This document shows positions 8,150 to 60,600 of a DNA stretch of 64,000 nt, in pieces (the first letter of the stretch is position 1; each line of letters begins with the position of its first letter). Below the pieces are notes generated by a model. The model saw nothing but the letters and a program-made list of their open reading frames with translations. It did no database searches and was not told the origin of the DNA. Origin of the DNA: Lactococcus lactis (GTDB lineage: Bacteria > Bacillota > Bacilli > Lactobacillales > Streptococcaceae); NCBI RefSeq assembly GCF_029023865.1, contig NZ_CP118969.1:744001-808000 (forward strand), in the 5' to 3' direction. The position numbers and the translations under genes were made by a program.

Positions 8150-8176
8150 ACTGACAGACTTTCTGTCAGTAATTTT
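8150..8176. terminator. bidirectional terminator built from the dispersed motif
   Basis: ACTGACAGA, a CTT loop and TCTGTCAGT form a perfect 9-bp stem followed by AATTTTTT on the + strand and preceded by an A-run for the - strand. It serves the converging membrane protein and HAD hydrolase genes. Confidence 0.85.
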
Positions 8177-8972: not shown

Positions 8973-9133
8973 AATTTTATTGTATCAAATTTATGATATA
9001 ATTGTAAGTGGAATTATCCATTCTTTTATAAAGAATTTAAATGACTGACAGAACTGTCAGTTTGTGTTAACTATAAAAATAAATAAATATAATTAATATT
9101 ATTTTACTGACAAACCTGTCAATATTATTAAAA

Positions 9134-15309: not shown

Positions 15310-15389
15310 AAATTCAGACGAGTTTGAGCAACTCTCGTTGTCTGATTCACCATTTTATTGGAATTGTGGGAATCTTATTCGGAGGAAAA

Positions 15390-17390
15390 ATGTCAAACAA
15401 AAATAAAAAAAATAGAAACAAAAACAAAAATAATAACAATAATAAACCAAAAAATGAGCAACAAATTGGTGAAAAAACTTTGAAACTTCAAGATTTACAA
15501 GATTTTACCGTAGGGCAAATTGTTGCAGAATCAAAACGTGTTGATAAAGAAAATGAAGAAAATGAGTCTGTTTTAGATAAATATATTCGTCAGCACCGTG
15601 GAGAAATTGAAGAAGCTAAAAGTAAAAATTTGGACGAATTCATTCAGGCAGAACGTACAAATATAGAAGTTCCGGTTGAAGAAGATAAAGAAGCTAAGTC
15701 AGAAAAACTTCAAGAAGTTTCCAAAGAGGAAATCGACGAGAATGATGAATTAGCAGCTTCAAAAATTGAAACTGAAAAAGTTACTGACAGTTCTGATTCT
15801 GATTTGTCAGCAGAAAATAAAGACTTAGAAGTTGCTGACAAGGAAAGCGAAGAAACTAAAAAATCAAAAAATGATTTAGTTTTAGATCCAGTTGTGATGG
15901 TCGACGCTCCTGTCAGTACTTTGCCAGAGCAAAAAGAAGCTCCGCAAGTTGAAGAAGTCAAGAAAACTGAACCAACTGACGAAGAAGAAGCCGAAAGTCC
16001 ACAAGATGAGAAGGTAGTTGCTGCACCAGTTATGATGTCAGCAAACGAAGTTCCAATGGACGAGCCAAGTGAACCAGAAATTTCTGAAACTGACACTAAA
16101 ACTGATTCAATAATTGACGAAAAATCAGAAGTTGAACCAAAAGTAACAGAAGAACCAGCAGAAGAAATTAAATCTGATTCAAAAGAAGATTCTACTGAAA
16201 ATAATCAAGCCCTTGAATCGGGAGCTGAGGAAAAAGTGACAGATTCACCAAAAGAGACAAAAAGTGATATTCCTGATAAAGTTATTACTGCTGAATCAGT
16301 TTCACCTCACTTACTAGCTGAAACAACATCCTTTAAAGCAGATAAAGTAGAAGAAAATGCGGCAAAAATTACTGACGAAAAGTCAAAAAATCGTAAAAAA
16401 CCAATCATTATTGGTCTATGTGCAATTGTTTTAATTGCAGCTGGAGCGATTGGATTTGCCCAATATAATAGTCATCAAAAAGGGAAAACGGTTCAAACTT
16501 ATCAAAGCAGTCAGAGTGATTTAGATAAATATCAGAAACAATACGATGCTTTTTTCACTGACAAATCACATACTATTTTGAGAAATAGTCAATTTAGCAA
16601 GTTATCAGCTCTTGAAACTTTAGTTGATGCTCACAAAAATTCCATGGCATGGTCAAATGCAGTTTCTGATACAGAAAGCCTAAAAGACCAAATTAATGCG
16701 ATTAAGAAAGTGAATGCTCTCTTTACTAGCGCAGCAATTACTGACGGAAAACTTGATTCATCAGCTAAAATAGTGGCAAATGTAAAAGTTCCAGAAACTC
16801 CTAAAACAACCAATGAAACCCTGAATAAATTACTGACACAAGCCATTGATTTAGCTAAGAGCCAAGTTGCTAAGGAAAGTTCAGCTAAAGCGTCTGCAAG
16901 TGCAGCAGAAGCCAAAGCGAATCAAGGAGCTACTAGCCAAAGTTCTACATCAAGTACAGCTAGTCAAAGCAATTCTACGACGACTCCTTCGTCAGCAGCT
17001 TCAGCAGGTTCAAGTACAAATGCCAGCACAAGTAGTAATGCTAATGGTTTGAGTAGCAACGGAGTTAATTTAGAAGTATCAGCAGCACGTGTCCAACCTC
17101 AAGCTGGAGTCAACACGAATGATCCTGCTTTCACATGGGGAGCTGGAATTAAAGAAATGGTTCTGAATAAAGCCCGTGAACGCGGCTATATTACAGGAGA
17201 TAATTATATTTTAGTTCCAACAGCGATTCATACAACCAATGGTTCCCAAGGTTTCCCAGCCGGAATTGTTAGTGGTTATTACAATCTTTATGCACCAGAT
17301 GGTCGGTATTTAGTATCAATCAATGCTAAAACAGGTTTCTTTGTTGGTAATGGTTCTGGTCATGCTGATAACTTAGATTATGACGCATAG
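15390..17390 (+). CDS. mapZ: mid-cell-anchored division protein MapZ (LocZ)
   Basis: Marks the division site and positions FtsZ in streptococci and relatives. The start is ATG 15390, after GGAGG; the frame is open to 15324 but without a ribosome site. The N-terminal motif (FTVGQIVAESKR, then SVLDKYIRQHRGEIEEAK) is the conserved FtsZ-contacting segment of MapZ. A long acidic cytoplasmic region follows, with a single membrane helix at about 337-357, an extracellular helical domain, a Ser/Thr-rich linker (about 505-560) and a conserved C-terminal domain to residue 666. Synteny with gpsB, rnpB and the THUMP methyltransferase supports the call. It is longer than the pneumococcal protein, mainly in the acidic part. 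Confidence 0.92.
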   Translation: MSNKNKKNRNKNKNNNNNKPKNEQQIGEKTLKLQDLQDFTVGQIVAESKRVDKENEENESVLDKYIRQHRGEIEEAKSKNLDEFIQAERTNIEVPVEEDKEAKSEKLQEVSKEEIDENDELAASKIETEKVTDSSDSDLSAENKDLEVADKESEETKKSKNDLVLDPVVMVDAPVSTLPEQKEAPQVEEVKKTEPTDEEEAESPQDEKVVAAPVMMSANEVPMDEPSEPEISETDTKTDSIIDEKSEVEPKVTEEPAEEIKSDSKEDSTENNQALESGAEEKVTDSPKETKSDIPDKVITAESVSPHLLAETTSFKADKVEENAAKITDEKSKNRKKPIIIGLCAIVLIAAGAIGFAQYNSHQKGKTVQTYQSSQSDLDKYQKQYDAFFTDKSHTILRNSQFSKLSALETLVDAHKNSMAWSNAVSDTESLKDQINAIKKVNALFTSAAITDGKLDSSAKIVANVKVPETPKTTNETLNKLLTQAIDLAKSQVAKESSAKASASAAEAKANQGATSQSSTSSTASQSNSTTTPSSAASAGSSTNASTSSNANGLSSNGVNLEVSAARVQPQAGVNTNDPAFTWGAGIKEMVLNKARERGYITGDNYILVPTAIHTTNGSQGFPAGIVSGYYNLYAPDGRYLVSINAKTGFFVGNGSGHADNLDYDA

Positions 17391-17400
17391 AAAATAAAAA

Positions 17401-17430
17401 ATAATCATCATTTTGATGATTATTTTTTTT
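17401..17430 (+). terminator. terminator of mapZ
   Basis: ATAATCATCA/TGATGATTAT with a TTT loop is followed by eight Ts. Confidence 0.88.
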
Positions 17431-17540
17431 ACTGACAGAAACCTACTGACAGAAACCTACTGACAGAAACTTACTGACAAAAAATTCACTGACAAAAATT
17501 TACTGACAAAAAATTCACTGACAAAAATTTACTGACAAAA
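17431..17540. repeat. eight tandem copies of a 14-15-bp ACTGACA unit
   Basis: ACTGACA begins at 17431, 17445, 17459, 17473, 17488, 17502, 17517 and 17531. The first three units read ACTGACAGAAAC(C/T)T; the next alternate ACTGACAAAAAATTC and ACTGACAAAAATTT. The array lies exactly between the converging terminators of mapZ and pepQ. Confidence 0.95.
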
Positions 17541-17571
17541 AAACTTTCGCCAAAATCAGCGAAAGTTTTTT
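17540..17571 (-). terminator. terminator of pepQ
   Basis: AAAACTTTCGC/GCGAAAGTTTT around an 8-nt loop, read on the minus strand after pepQ, with an A/T-rich flank supplying the U-tract. Confidence 0.85.
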
Positions 17572-17590: not shown

Positions 17591-18721
<1,131 letters not shown>

Positions 18722-24510: not shown

Positions 24511-24558
24511 ACTGACAGAACTTTTTTCTTCTTGAAATAAAGTCTGTCAGTATTTTTT
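24511..24558 (+). terminator. terminator of trxA made from the dispersed motif
   Basis: ACTGACAGA-a-CTTT pairs with AAAG-TCTGTCAGT and is followed by ATTTTTTT. The remaining gap to 24745 holds one more CTGTCAG (about 24582) and near-copies, but no gene. Confidence 0.82.
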
Positions 24559-24745
24559 TATATTCAATTCTAGTGAAAAGTTCTGTCAGTAAAAGAGAGT
24601 GAAAGCATGGCACATACTGACAAGTCTGTCATTAAAATGAGCGTGACAAAAGGCTTTTAAAATGATATGATTGAAAAAGAAAAATTACAAAGAAAATAGG
24701 GATTTGGAAGGTCAAAAAGACTTTTCAAATTTTGAGGAGTTTAAT

Positions 24746-35787: not shown

Positions 35788-37422
35788 ATGGTGAAATTGC
35801 TTGATGATTATTTGATAAAGGGTGAGGAATTTAAAAAAGTAAAAATTAAAATTCCTAACTTTAATCAAGACAAAGTTATAGAGTCAACAGCTGATAATCC
35901 AGTCTGGGTCCACTTTGGTGGAGGAAATCTTTTTAGATGTTTCCATGCGGTTGTCGCCCAAGACTTACTCAATCAAGGAGAACTCAACTCAGGTCTTATT
36001 GTGGCCGAAACTTATGATGATGAGGTAATTGATAAAATCTATCGAGCCTATAATAATCGTTTTCTGTCAGTGACAATGAAAACAGATGGAACTTTTGACA
36101 AAGAATTGATTGCGAGTGTTGCTGAAAGTTTTTATTTTAATGCAGAAAATACCGAAGGTTGGGCTCATTTAACAAAAGTCTTTGAAAATCCGTCTTTGCA
36201 ATTGACAACTTTTTCGATTACAGAAAAAGGTTATTCACTACGGGATTCAAAAGATCTATTGACGCCTTTGGCACTTGAAGATATGCAAGGAAGAAGCAAG
36301 CCCAAAACCAATATGGGGGCAGTTACTTATCTCCTTTATGCAAGATTTAAAGCTGGTAAATTTCCGATTGCCATGGTGAGCACAGATAATTTTTCAGAAA
36401 ATGGTTTGAAATTGCAAGAAGCGATTTTGACCATTGCTAAAGCTTGGGTGGAAAATGAAATCGTAGAACAAGATTTTTATGATTACCTTATCAATCCTAA
36501 AAAAGTCAGTTTTCCCTGGTCAATGATTGACCGAATTACACCCAATCCGTCTGAAAAAGTTGCAAAATTACTGACAGCTGATGGTTTTGAGGATACAGAA
36601 ATTTTACATAGTCAAAAACATACAAATATTGCTCCTTTTGGTAATACGGAAGAAGTTCATTATTTAGTGATTGAAGATACTTTTCCAAATGGCAGGCCGG
36701 CATTAGAAAAAGCTGGAGTTATCTTGACTGATCGTGAAACAGTCAATGATGCTGATCAGATGAAAGTTACCGCTTGTTTGAACCCCTTGCATACCGCTTT
36801 AGCTATTTTTGGAAGTTTATTAGATTATCATTCAATTTGGGAAGAAGTTGCCAATCCAGATTTGTTAGCACTTATTAAGAATTTGGGGTATGGCGAGGCT
36901 TTGCCTGTGGTTAAGAATCCGAAAATTATCAATCCGAAAGATTTTATTGACCAGTTATTGACTAAACGTTTACCAAATAAAAACATTCCAGATACACCAC
37001 AGAGAATTGCGGCAGATACGTCACAAAAAATTCCTGTTCGCTATGGCGTAACGATTGGACACTATATTGCCAATCCAAGATTTTCTGTTAAAGAATTGGA
37101 ATTTATTCCATTAGTCATTGCTGCTTGGTGCCGTTATTTAATCGGAATTAATGATGAGTTAGAAAGTTTTTCTCCAAGTCCGGACCCTCTTCTTGAAGAG
37201 TTGCAAGCTTTTGTTGCCGAGGTAAAATTAGATGGTAGTCAGCAAGAAATTCATGAAATTCTAAAACCTATCTTATCTAATCACCAAATTTTTCCAAATG
37301 AGATGTACCAAACAGGGCTAGCTCAAAAGATTGAAAATTACTTTGAGCAAATGCTTCAAGGCAAAGGAGCAGTGCTTAAGACACTGCAAATCGTCCTAAA
37401 AGAACACGGAAAAAAATACTGA
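35788..37422 (+). CDS. uxuB: fructuronate reductase / D-mannonate oxidoreductase
   Basis: Reduces D-fructuronate to D-mannonate with NADH. The 544 residues belong to the long-chain mannitol dehydrogenase family: N-terminal WVHFGGGNLFRCFHAVVAQDLL for nucleotide binding and a C-terminal helical domain with the KVTACLNPLHTALA segment (catalytic lysine and histidine region). The start is ATG 35788 after AAAGGAG; the frame is open 21 bases upstream without a site. It is the first gene of the uxu operon. Its stop codon lies inside an ACTGACAG motif. Confidence 0.93.
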   Translation: MVKLLDDYLIKGEEFKKVKIKIPNFNQDKVIESTADNPVWVHFGGGNLFRCFHAVVAQDLLNQGELNSGLIVAETYDDEVIDKIYRAYNNRFLSVTMKTDGTFDKELIASVAESFYFNAENTEGWAHLTKVFENPSLQLTTFSITEKGYSLRDSKDLLTPLALEDMQGRSKPKTNMGAVTYLLYARFKAGKFPIAMVSTDNFSENGLKLQEAILTIAKAWVENEIVEQDFYDYLINPKKVSFPWSMIDRITPNPSEKVAKLLTADGFEDTEILHSQKHTNIAPFGNTEEVHYLVIEDTFPNGRPALEKAGVILTDRETVNDADQMKVTACLNPLHTALAIFGSLLDYHSIWEEVANPDLLALIKNLGYGEALPVVKNPKIINPKDFIDQLLTKRLPNKNIPDTPQRIAADTSQKIPVRYGVTIGHYIANPRFSVKELEFIPLVIAAWCRYLIGINDELESFSPSPDPLLEELQAFVAEVKLDGSQQEIHEILKPILSNHQIFPNEMYQTGLAQKIENYFEQMLQGKGAVLKTLQIVLKEHGKKY

Positions 37423-37503
37423 CAGACTACTTATTTAGAACTGTCAGTAAAAAAATATCTGAAAATTTACTGACAGAATGTTTAATTTTGAGCTGTCAGT
37501 AAA
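37418..37503 (+). repeat. two consecutive hairpins of the dispersed motif
   Basis: ACTGACAG (37418-37425) pairs with CTGTCAGT (37441-37448), and TTTACTGACAG (37466-37476) pairs with CTGTCAGTAAA (37493-37503). The first is followed by A7, not T, so an mRNA-processing or attenuation role is possible. Confidence 0.85.
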
Positions 37504-50714: not shown

Positions 50715-50885
50715 GTATGCGATGAGTCGAATAATTCTACTTTGTAGAATTTCGAAGCTAAGGAATACTGGGAAATTGGGTTTTCCGCGCAGGAAGCGTG
50801 AGTATTTGTCAAATTGTGTGAACCTTTTTGACACACTTTTAGTGCCTTTAAAAGCCCTCGAAAGAGGGCTTTTTTTACGTAACGA
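50715..50885 (+). ncRNA. unassigned structured RNA with terminator
   Basis: The 371-bp stretch before glpF begins with a likely non-coding RNA. A first hairpin pairs TCGAA-ATTCTAC with GTAGAAT-TTCGA around TTT. A second region pairs AATACT with AGTATT and encloses GGGAAA/TTTTCC and CGC/GCG. TGTCAAA can pair with TTTGACA. The stem AAAGCCCTC/GAGGGCTTT, with a GAAA loop, and a T7 run end it near 50878. A possible promoter is TTGTTT and TAAAAT across the 50682-50710 region. I could not match SRP RNA, tmRNA or a known riboswitch; 6S RNA is possible but unproven. From 50886 to 51070 I see only AT-rich promoter sequence. Confidence 0.55.
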
Positions 50886-53623: not shown

Positions 53624-53865
53624 TATAATAGGTCAAACAAAATTAGAGGTTGCGAAGACGAAGAAGTTAGTGGAGCGGTGAACGCACTGAAGCTGATGGC
53701 GGCGTTCTTTGCCGAAAGAAAAATTGTCACAAAATTTTTCTTGGGCTGTGTGGTTAAATCCTACAGACTGTCTTTCTGTCAGTACTGACAGAAAGGGGAG
53801 CTAATCAAAATCATTTTTGACGAACTTTTGAGAACCTCTTTTGCATAAAAAGAGGTTCTTTTTGA
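53624..53865 (+). promoter_or_regulatory. lysine riboswitch (L-box) with terminator, controlling dapA
   Basis: An extended -10 (TGC then TATAAT, 53624-53629) with TTGACC 18 bp upstream starts the leader. From 53645 the conserved L-box elements follow in order: AGAGGTTGCGAAGACG, AAGTTAGTGGAG, GCTGATGGCGGCG, TTTGCCGAAAG and TTGGGCTGTGTGGTTAAATCC. A 24-base perfect palindrome of the dispersed motif is at 53772-53795. The terminator AGAACCTCTTTT/AAAAGAGGTTCT at 53831-53859 ends in TTTT. Lysine binding would stop transcription before dapA. Confidence 0.9.
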
Positions 53866-57626: not shown

Positions 57627-60600
57627 ATGTCTCAAAAATCAATAAAGAAAATAACGATGACTGTTGGAGTGGGATTACTGACAGCCACTCTTAATCCCAC
57701 ATTCTTGAATCATCAGTTGCTGACAGAATTGCCGGTGGAGGCCACGACAAGTAAAATTACTTATACTGATGAGCAAAAAATTACTTACAATCTTGATAAA
57801 GTTTCAATGACAGCTGAAGTTGCCTCCTATGCTGGCTTAGCGGGAGCTGATATTGTAATTCCGGATATCATTGTAAATAACGGTCAAACCTATGCAATAA
57901 CATCAATTGGAACTTATGCATTTTCAAATAGTGGAATTCATTCGGTTATTATCGGAAATAATGTTGTAGATATTAATACGAGTGCCTTTCAAACAACAAC
58001 AGCTTTTCCTGACTATTATAAGAAATCACTGACAGAAGTAGTTTTAGGAGCAAAAGTCCAAAATATAAAAACAGATGCTTTTGCTGGAAACGCCATAAGT
58101 AGTATAGAATTTCCAAATTCTGTCCTAAAGATTGCGACAAGAGCTTTTGCAAATAATAATTTAGCAGAACTTTCATTGGGTCCAAATATCACAGAAATTA
58201 TGGCCAAAGCCTTTCAAAGTAACCAAATCACTACAATAAAATTTGCTGATGAATCATTGACAATAGTAGATTCAGCAGCCTTTTCTGGGAGTCCCGTTCA
58301 AAGCTTGACTTTGGGAATTGGAGTGACTTTGGCTGATGACGTATTCAATAAAACGAGTCCTTTATTTGGTCAGTTATCAGATTTACCGACAGATGGAATT
58401 CGGACAATTTCTGTCAACTCTAGTGGTCTTTTGGATAAAAGTTGGATAAATTCTGACAGTTCACAGTCGGCTTCTGTGATTACTGAACATGCAGATACAG
58501 CCCCTGTCTCTTCTTCCAATTCAGTAGAGCAAGTTGATGTTGCCAATTCAGAATCAACACAAGAGGCAAATTCGGCTTCATTCTATCCAATATCTGAAGC
58601 GAGTAGTATTACAGATAATACTTTAAATTCAATCTCTTCTTTAGACAGTAGTATTTCTAGCTCACAAACAGAGAATAGTCAGTCAGGAGCTTCCAGTACA
58701 GCAGAAATCAGTTATGATTCAGAAAACCCAAATAGTTTGTCTTCTTCAAACCAAATCAATTCCAATTCCAATTCAAATAGTGAAAATGATTCAAACCAAT
58801 CCTCATTATATTCAAGTATGTCCTCTAACGAAGAAAGTAAGCAATCTAATTCTTCCAATATCAACGAAACGAATAATAGTTCAGAAATAACCAATATTTT
58901 ACCATCATCAAATCCGGCAGAAAGTAATTCAGTATCAGATCAAACAAGTTCTGAAGCTTCAACCAATTCAAATAGTAGTATCAGTTTATCCCCCTCAAAC
59001 ATAAGTTCGACTTCTGATTCAGAATCAGCAACTAATTCGTCAGATTTTTCTAATGTAGCAGAAGTGGCTAATAATTCCTTAGCTTCCATAAACAATAGTT
59101 CAAGTTCAGTTTTATCCAGTACAAGCACGGCTGATAATTTAGAAATCAATCAATCTGGTTCTGATAATCTTACAAAGGATAGCACGGAAATATCTACTTC
59201 AGAAGCCGTTTCGACTTCAAATCAAACAAGTTCTGAAGCTTCAAGCAATTCAAATAGTAGTATCAGTTTATCTCCCTCAAACATAAGTTCGACTTCTGTT
59301 TTGGAATCAACAACTAGTTCGCCAGATTTTTCTAATGTAGCAGAAGTAGCTAATAATTCCTTAGCTTCCATAAACAATAGTTCAAGTTCAGTTTTATCCA
59401 GTACAAGCACAGCTGATAATTTAGAAATCAATCAATCTAGTTCTGATAATCTTACAAAGGATAGCACGGAAATATCTACTTCAGGAGCCGTTTCGACGTC
59501 AAATCAAACAAGTTCTGAAGCTTCAAGAAATTCAATGAGCAGTATAAATTCACCATCATCAAGTATGAGTTTAACTTCCAACTCAGAATTAGCAACTAAT
59601 CAGTCTAATTCTTGCGAAGCAACAGAAGTATATAATAATTCATCAACTCATTCTTCAGATCTTTTAAATAGTGGTTCAAATGATAGTTTAGATTCAGATT
59701 CAGATTCAGATTCTTCAAACCTTAGTAGTATCCCTAATTTGGAAACGAATCAAACTATTTCGTCCAGACCAAGTGAAGTAAATAATATATCAGAAAACCC
59801 TAAGAAAGTTTCTTCTTCAAATTCAGTTCAAGAAAACTCAACAGACCATGAGATGTCTACTAACCCAAAAAGTAGCATAAGTTCACCTGTCAGCACAACT
59901 TCTAGCTCACAACCAAAAGAGAGTCAGTCGAATCTACTTAATACAACAGTAGGAATCAACAATCCGATAACTTTTAATAATTCGTCATCAGAAAATTTTG
60001 CTGCCTCTAATCTAACTAGTTATTCAAATAATAACCCAGAATCATCAGAATCAAGATATTTAAATATATCTAATGAGGCACAAAGAAACAATCATTCAGA
60101 AATTTCTTATAGTTTGCCATCTTCAAATTTAAATGAAAACAACACGTCTTCTATACAATCACAGGTAATTTTAGAAAGCTCTAAAAGCTCAACAAATAAG
60201 AGAAGTTCATTATTATCAATTATAAACTCAACTTCTCACCCACAAAAAGAAGATCATCAGTCAAATTCTTCTGATGAAGTAAAATCAAATAATAATATAG
60301 AGTCAATTTTAGGTCAATTAAATTCCATAAGTAACAAAACTCATGTGAATTCTTTGACTAGCCAAAAACTATCAGTAAGTTACACCTTACCAAGCAAATC
60401 GAAAGTGATGAATGAAAAAAATAAAAATTCAAATATAATAAGCGAAGAAAAACTCATCAGAACTCCTCAAAAAAATGATGAAAGTCAAAATTTAGGACAA
60501 ATAACTGCTCTTGACTTATCTTTTAACAAAGAAGTAGAGACTATGGAAGATTCTAAAACAGTTCCAGATAAAGTTCTAGATAATGAAAATGGTGATCGGA

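Follow-up and report, generated by a model that had tools for sequence, protein, structure and literature searches.

The eight head-to-tail copies of a short motif that lie between mapZ and pepQ of Lactococcus lactis are most likely an incidental local tandem duplication, that is, a minisatellite without a special role. The octamer on which they are built, ACTGACAG, is dispersed through the chromosome and through the genomes of related species, and these dispersed copies are helically phased. We regard as very nearly an even call the reading that joins the two parts, namely that the array is a chance duplication and that the word is a genome-wide recognition word, most likely one for the uptake of self-DNA. 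Throughout, "the window" denotes the whole stretch of 64,000 nucleotides of L. lactis DNA that was analyzed, and genomes are given by species name or by our own handles, with G000 for L. lactis.

The array between mapZ and pepQ

The original prediction described eight tandem copies, and eight are present. Read from the sequence, they occupy 17431-17538 and all start with ACTGACA; the first three carry the exact octamer and the last five carry ACTGACAA. Successive units start 14, 14, 14, 15, 14, 15 and 14 bp apart, in agreement with the predicted mixture of 14- and 15-bp units. Growth by pairwise duplication, which had likewise been proposed, is borne out by a 29-bp block, ACTGACAAAAAATTCACTGACAAAAATTT, that occurs twice inside the array in perfect copy; given these two identical copies, duplication of the dimer was probably the last step in the growth of the array. 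Tandem Repeats Finder reports the repeat at 17431-17542 with a score of 161 and a period of 29, which is not a chance arrangement. With eight copies within 108 bp, the array is the densest cluster of the word that we found, and it is the only array of the motif with more than three units among 18 Lactococcus genomes. The claim that it is the only array in the window is correct for this motif but not overall: an unrelated tandem repeat, consisting of two 282-bp units that are 95 per cent alike, lies at 58935-59535. This second repeat is serine-rich if coding.

Both mapZ and pepQ end at the spacer that holds the array. Its predicted position between the terminators of these two genes was confirmed by Pfam matches and by the flanking elements, a hairpin with a T-run on one side and a 13-bp stem on the other (Table 1). 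Unit 1 adjoins the T-run of the presumed mapZ terminator, and the last unit adjoins the pepQ terminator stem, which starts at 17538. Since an A-run and a T-run flank this stem, the pepQ-side terminator could act on either strand. A search of Rfam matched no family at the array, and the RNA structure of the array is weak (z = -1.7).

The PepQ protein is 97 per cent identical to that of L. cremoris and 94 per cent identical to that of L. taiwanensis. The array was not found in the 17 other Lactococcus species examined. Their mapZ-pepQ spacer often holds the word, differently in each species: L. cremoris has a single TTGTCAGT in reverse, L. taiwanensis an inverted ACTGACC...GGTCAGT, G006 four copies of ACTGACG, G004 and G016 an inverted pair within the terminator, and L. 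nasutitermitis pairs of TTTTGACAG. Within the array of L. lactis, spacing averages 14.3 bp, so that the sites point in every direction around the helix (R = 0.06 for individual sites and 0.13 for pairs), whereas the rest of the motif in this genome is strongly phased (R about 0.55).

These observations bear on the original suggestion that the array is a functional cluster, either a decoy that titrates the protein bound to it, a source of the motif's spread, or a domain border. The density of the array speaks for such a role. Against it, the array is unphased and absent from all other species examined, five units of the eight carry ACTGACAA, a variant with weaker enrichment, and species that lack it hold as many dispersed copies, so that we find none of the three roles supported and consider a functional cluster very improbable. 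At the species level, the array is missing from relatives while the motif is still dispersed in at least nine genomes, which is the outcome that, by the original prediction, would show the array to be incidental. Because the array is absent from other species and unphased, and because the motif is dispersed anyway, we regard it as incidental; nor did it seed the motif, since species without the array carry the word by the hundred. Slippage or unequal recombination on one copy of the dispersed word may have begun the array, followed by duplication of the 29-bp dimer, and the spacer between two terminators would be a site where additional DNA costs little. Like bacterial minisatellites (VNTRs), the array has short near-identical head-to-tail units, higher-order duplication and an intergenic site; it differs from them in that its unit happens to contain a genome-wide word.

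Table 1. Features of the array, its surroundings and selected dispersed copies, in window coordinates.
Feature	Position	Strand	Details
Array units 1-3	17431..17472	+	ACTGACAGAAACCT, ACTGACAGAAACCT, ACTGACAGAAACTT; 14 bp each; exact octamer ACTGACAG at 17431, 17445, 17459
Array units 4-8	17473..17538	+	ACTGACAA at 17473, 17488, 17502, 17517, 17531; spacings 15, 14, 15, 14; 29-bp dimer twice, perfect copy
Low-GC hairpin and T-run, presumed mapZ terminator	17397..17430	+	Read from the sequence; G-C pairs too few for the terminator scan
Intrinsic terminator beside pepQ	17538..17571	.	13-bp stem; terminator scan
mapZ, convergent with pepQ, upstream of the array	15387..17390	+	Pfam MapZ_EC1, MapZ_C2
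pepQ, Xaa-Pro dipeptidase (M24 prolidase)	17591..18679	-	Pfam Peptidase_M24
Phased motif cluster in mapZ coding sequence	15784/15805/15835		21 and 30 bp apart
Dispersed-motif cluster, example	24511..24623	.	Spacings 33, 39, 33
Two inverted motif pairs, example	37418..37500	.	ACTGACAG...CTGTCAGT twice
Inverted motif pair, terminator-like	8150..8170	.	5-bp spacer, T-rich run after
Inverted motif pair, example	9044..9061	.	2-bp spacer

Abundance, spelling and turnover of the word

The word occurs 41 times in the window, where 1.07 copies are expected, and 1,216 times in the 2.59-Mb L. lactis genome, compared with 75 copies of a reversed-word control. The genomic copies are divided 606/610 between the strands, and in 380 kb sampled from this genome no octamer is more over-represented. 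The extended motif is about AAAATTACTGACAGA, with an A-rich flank at its beginning and ACTGACAG as its core, and its information ends within about 20 bp. In the sampled DNA, 188 copies are coding and 186 are intergenic, which corresponds to densities of 2.6 and 15.4 per 10 kb, respectively (about a sixfold difference). Inverted pairs within 30 bp number 171, compared with 0 in the control; by their sequence, such pairs would form terminator hairpins, many of them with A- and T-rich flanks. Copies in coding sequence are mostly unpaired. Rfam matches in the window include a MarS sRNA (asd family) at 50717-50876 and a lysine riboswitch at 53636-53811; at its 3' end, the latter match overlaps with an inverted motif pair (53776-53791).

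Mobile DNA is poor in the word. C2 and C3, two small contigs that are presumably plasmids, hold 5 copies in 71 kb and lactococcal phage DNA holds 7 copies in 75 kb, that is, 0.7 and 0.9 copies per 10 kb compared with about 4.4 for the chromosome. The 60 kb of stretches L144, L145 and L078, which include an ICE-like island, hold no copy of ACTGACAG; conjugation-type genes lie in L078. A 20-kb stretch of ordinary-looking metabolic genes, L077 (G000:C1:1250001-1270000), located 16 kb from the predicted dif site, likewise contains neither ACTGACAG nor ACTGACAA. A literature search, with most subscription journals outside its reach, did not find ACTGACAG or TTACTGACAG as a described genome motif among the papers listed, whose titles point to primers, and a survey of abundant oligonucleotides makes no mention of the word.

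An excess of ACTGACAG is also found in G004 (1,545 copies), G016 (1,413), G010 (993), L. cremoris G015 (948), L. taiwanensis G009 (591) and G013 (399). Genome counts gave no comparable excess in the garvieae clade or in other families. Instead of ACTGACAG, G006 is enriched in ACTGACGR and L. nasutitermitis G011 in TTTGACAG, and the spelling of G007, of which 21 kb was read, is probably TTTGACGA. The species spellings are dialects of one pattern, [AC/TT]TGAC[AG/GR]. The words GAGTTAGA and GACTCAGA of L. termiticola were considered as a further dialect and rejected, as they reflect a 6-bp periodicity. In the stretches sampled, G004, G016 and G010 differ from L. lactis in favoring a head-on arrangement, the 16-bp palindrome CTGTCAGTACTGACAG, instead of spaced pairs.

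Alignment of L. lactis with L. cremoris showed 58 per cent of the sites of the former to be intact in the latter, compared with 37 per cent of 8-mers on average (n = 19). For the G016/G004 pair, conservation is 91 and 74 per cent compared with 71 per cent, and by G006 it is 13 per cent against a background of 15 per cent, so that positions have turned over; all of these comparisons rest on small numbers. Density is kept while positions move, a pattern that drive or a density-dependent function would fit better than fixed regulatory sites.

Helical phasing of the copies

We pooled nine genomes, each searched with its own spelling, and found that distances between copies peak at 21, 30-31, 42, 51, 62, 71-72, 82, 93, 102, 114 and 124 bp. 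A period of 10.40 bp fits both head-to-tail and convergent pairs best, divergent pairs are best fitted by 10.45 bp, and head-to-tail pairs are phased at least as strongly as inverted ones. Pairs are in 9-fold excess at 15-45 bp; the excess declines to 3-fold near 150 bp, and phasing is weaker beyond about 170 bp. Because pairs are partly non-independent, a jitter test is the safer statistic. In L. lactis, R is 0.42 within genes and 0.42 between genes, compared with maxima of 0.22 (coding) and 0.20 (intergenic) in 300 jittered replicates. Phasing is also present in two further dialects, and unrelated control words of similar frequency have no significant phasing. The extended motif carries information over no more than about 20 bp, so motif extension cannot cause the peaks at 60-124 bp.

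Phasing of this kind implies a multivalent binder that would read one face of the DNA. Neither the orientation of the copies nor the number of turns between them (about 2 to 15) affects it, which indicates that several copies are held at once on one face, and a rigid dimer is disfavored because it would favor one distance and one orientation. A 10.4-bp phasing found in coding and non-coding DNA and in several dialects would be the direct footprint of a protein machine. The phasing of the dispersed copies is strong, though indirect, support for the idea in the original prediction that a protein reads the motif.

Candidate functions of the word

By analogy with the uptake words DUS (Neisseria) and USS (Haemophilus), we lean, with a little less than even confidence, towards self-DNA recognition in natural transformation as the function of the word. 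The word resembles uptake sequences in all genomic features that we tested: copy number, presence on both strands, inverted pairs, dialects and depletion from mobile DNA. Like the DUS and USS of the Neisseriaceae and Pasteurellaceae, it is a short non-palindromic word that is found on both strands, within genes and between them, at a copy number of about 1,000 or higher. The likeness extends to terminators that hold the word as inverted pairs flanked by A/T (PMC1852404), to dialects among relatives (PMC3630211), to scarcity of the word in foreign DNA and, probably, to natural transformability of the host genus, transformation having been reported in some L. lactis strains (PMC11244767). In contrast to DUS and USS, the Lactococcus word has a Gram-positive host, its uptake role and receptor are only proposed, and its copies are phased over about 15 turns; this last contrast rests on the published descriptions of DUS and USS, in which our search found no description of helically phased copies. 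Uptake outside Neisseria and Haemophilus, Gram-positives included, is held to be sequence-independent (PMC12040237), and in H. influenzae two USS less than 100 bp apart do not raise uptake (PMC7811141).

More tentative still is the specific proposal that the dialectal word of Lactococcus is read on one helix face by a multivalent surface receptor during uptake. DNA lying against a surface, membrane or filament with many receptors would have several same-face copies bound together, with avidity coming from membrane-anchored receptors, for which ComEA and the tip of the competence pilus are candidates. Fragments bearing same-face copies would have an advantage in uptake or retention, recombination of these favored fragments would then spread both copies and phasing, and the density of the word would be held high by selection or by biased gene exchange. 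If the one-face proposal is true, this would be the first Gram-positive uptake sequence, and its copies would work as phased clusters, not singly. Were the word indeed an uptake sequence, specific recognition of self-DNA by its sequence in transformation would reach beyond two Gram-negative families and become accessible to study in a harmless food organism, and the correct spelling on donor DNA might make L. lactis easier to transform, which has long been a practical difficulty.

Two further observations weigh against an uptake function, namely that the garvieae clade has com genes yet no word, and that ordinary-looking genes in L077 hold no copy. The main rival, a serious alternative although on balance an unlikely one, is that the word is the site of an abundant chromosome-organizing protein, nucleoid-associated or membrane-tethering as has been proposed for RocS and Noc, that holds several sites on one face, and that the dialects reflect drift of its DNA-binding domain. 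Phasing in all orientations, in coding and intergenic DNA alike, would suit such a protein, as would about 1,200 chromosomal sites with an intergenic preference and few in mobile DNA. Rapid turnover does not suit it, since by G006 sites are conserved no better than background; nor does a word whose spelling varies within a single genus and which the garvieae clade lacks, a behavior that is not known from the sites of ParB or Noc. No sharp gap was seen at the terminus either. The query for dif was a core that we take to be streptococcal/lactococcal; it has exactly one match in 13 of the 18 genomes, and in L. lactis its single match, at the GC-skew switch, predicts dif at G000:C1:1233954-1233974, inside L140. 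Copies lie close to this site at a somewhat lower density, the neighboring 20-kb stretches holding 12, 4, 0, 9 and 10 (G000 only), and, with no clear gap at dif in this genome, we tend to disfavor terminus-avoiding sites of the Noc/SlmA type. If the word is nevertheless a chromosome-organizing site, Lactococcus would have a dense, phased and rapidly evolving binding code.

Other explanations fare less well than chromosome organization. A modification or self-marking site, whether of a restriction-modification system or of an orphan methylase as proposed for HIP1, would account for high copy number and species dialects, and cyanobacterial HIPs are reportedly linked to methylases. HIP1 (GCGATCGC) resembles our word as a genome-wide high-copy octamer but is palindromic, whereas ACTGACAG is not its own reverse complement and has helically phased copies. 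Modification gives no reason for 10.4-bp phasing across about 15 turns, and restriction sites are as a rule avoided rather than enriched, all of which makes this explanation improbable. A role as nothing more than a favored stem for intrinsic terminators is highly improbable: many inverted pairs are flanked by A- and T-rich DNA, but coding sequence holds half of the copies, most of them unpaired, and the phasing of head-to-tail pairs is at least equal to that of inverted ones. Terminator use of the word is probably secondary. Over-representation of an octamer in the chromosome could also point to a polar site of the Chi or KOPS type. The lactococcal Chi, GCGCGTG, is a short word over-represented in the same genomes, and it served as a positive control: its counts by replichore and strand in the same DNA are polar (26/3/10/25), whereas those of ACTGACAG are symmetric (98/94/87/95). 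This symmetry led us to reject a polar site, which we give almost no chance.

As for the competence genes, comGA is present in all 18 Lactococcus genomes and comEC in 17 of them. A comparison of ComGA-GG, ComEA and ComEC among few genomes revealed no residue that separates the dialects; no receptor was found, and this counts against an uptake function. In G010, comGC-comGG are unmatched beside comGA-comGB (L219) and the word still stands at 993 copies; L. cremoris G015 has truncated com genes (L217, L237) and still 948 copies. Because of these missing or damaged genes, an uptake function requires that recent com loss be assumed in G010 and L. cremoris. ComGG, which is the capping minor pilin in a model of the S. 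pneumoniae pilus tip (PMC12040237), is without its C-terminal part throughout the garvieae clade (G001, G002, G008, G014 and G017; L225-L229), which also has no word. Every word-bearing species that was examined and has a match for comGG keeps the C-terminal part, as do some species without a clear word; its loss fits the loss of the word, yet it concerns one clade, and the part persists where the word is not clear. In the comG operon of the L. lactis genome (L213), the listed comGC frame begins inside the prepilin motif (LIEMLIV), suggesting that comGC may be broken in this strain.
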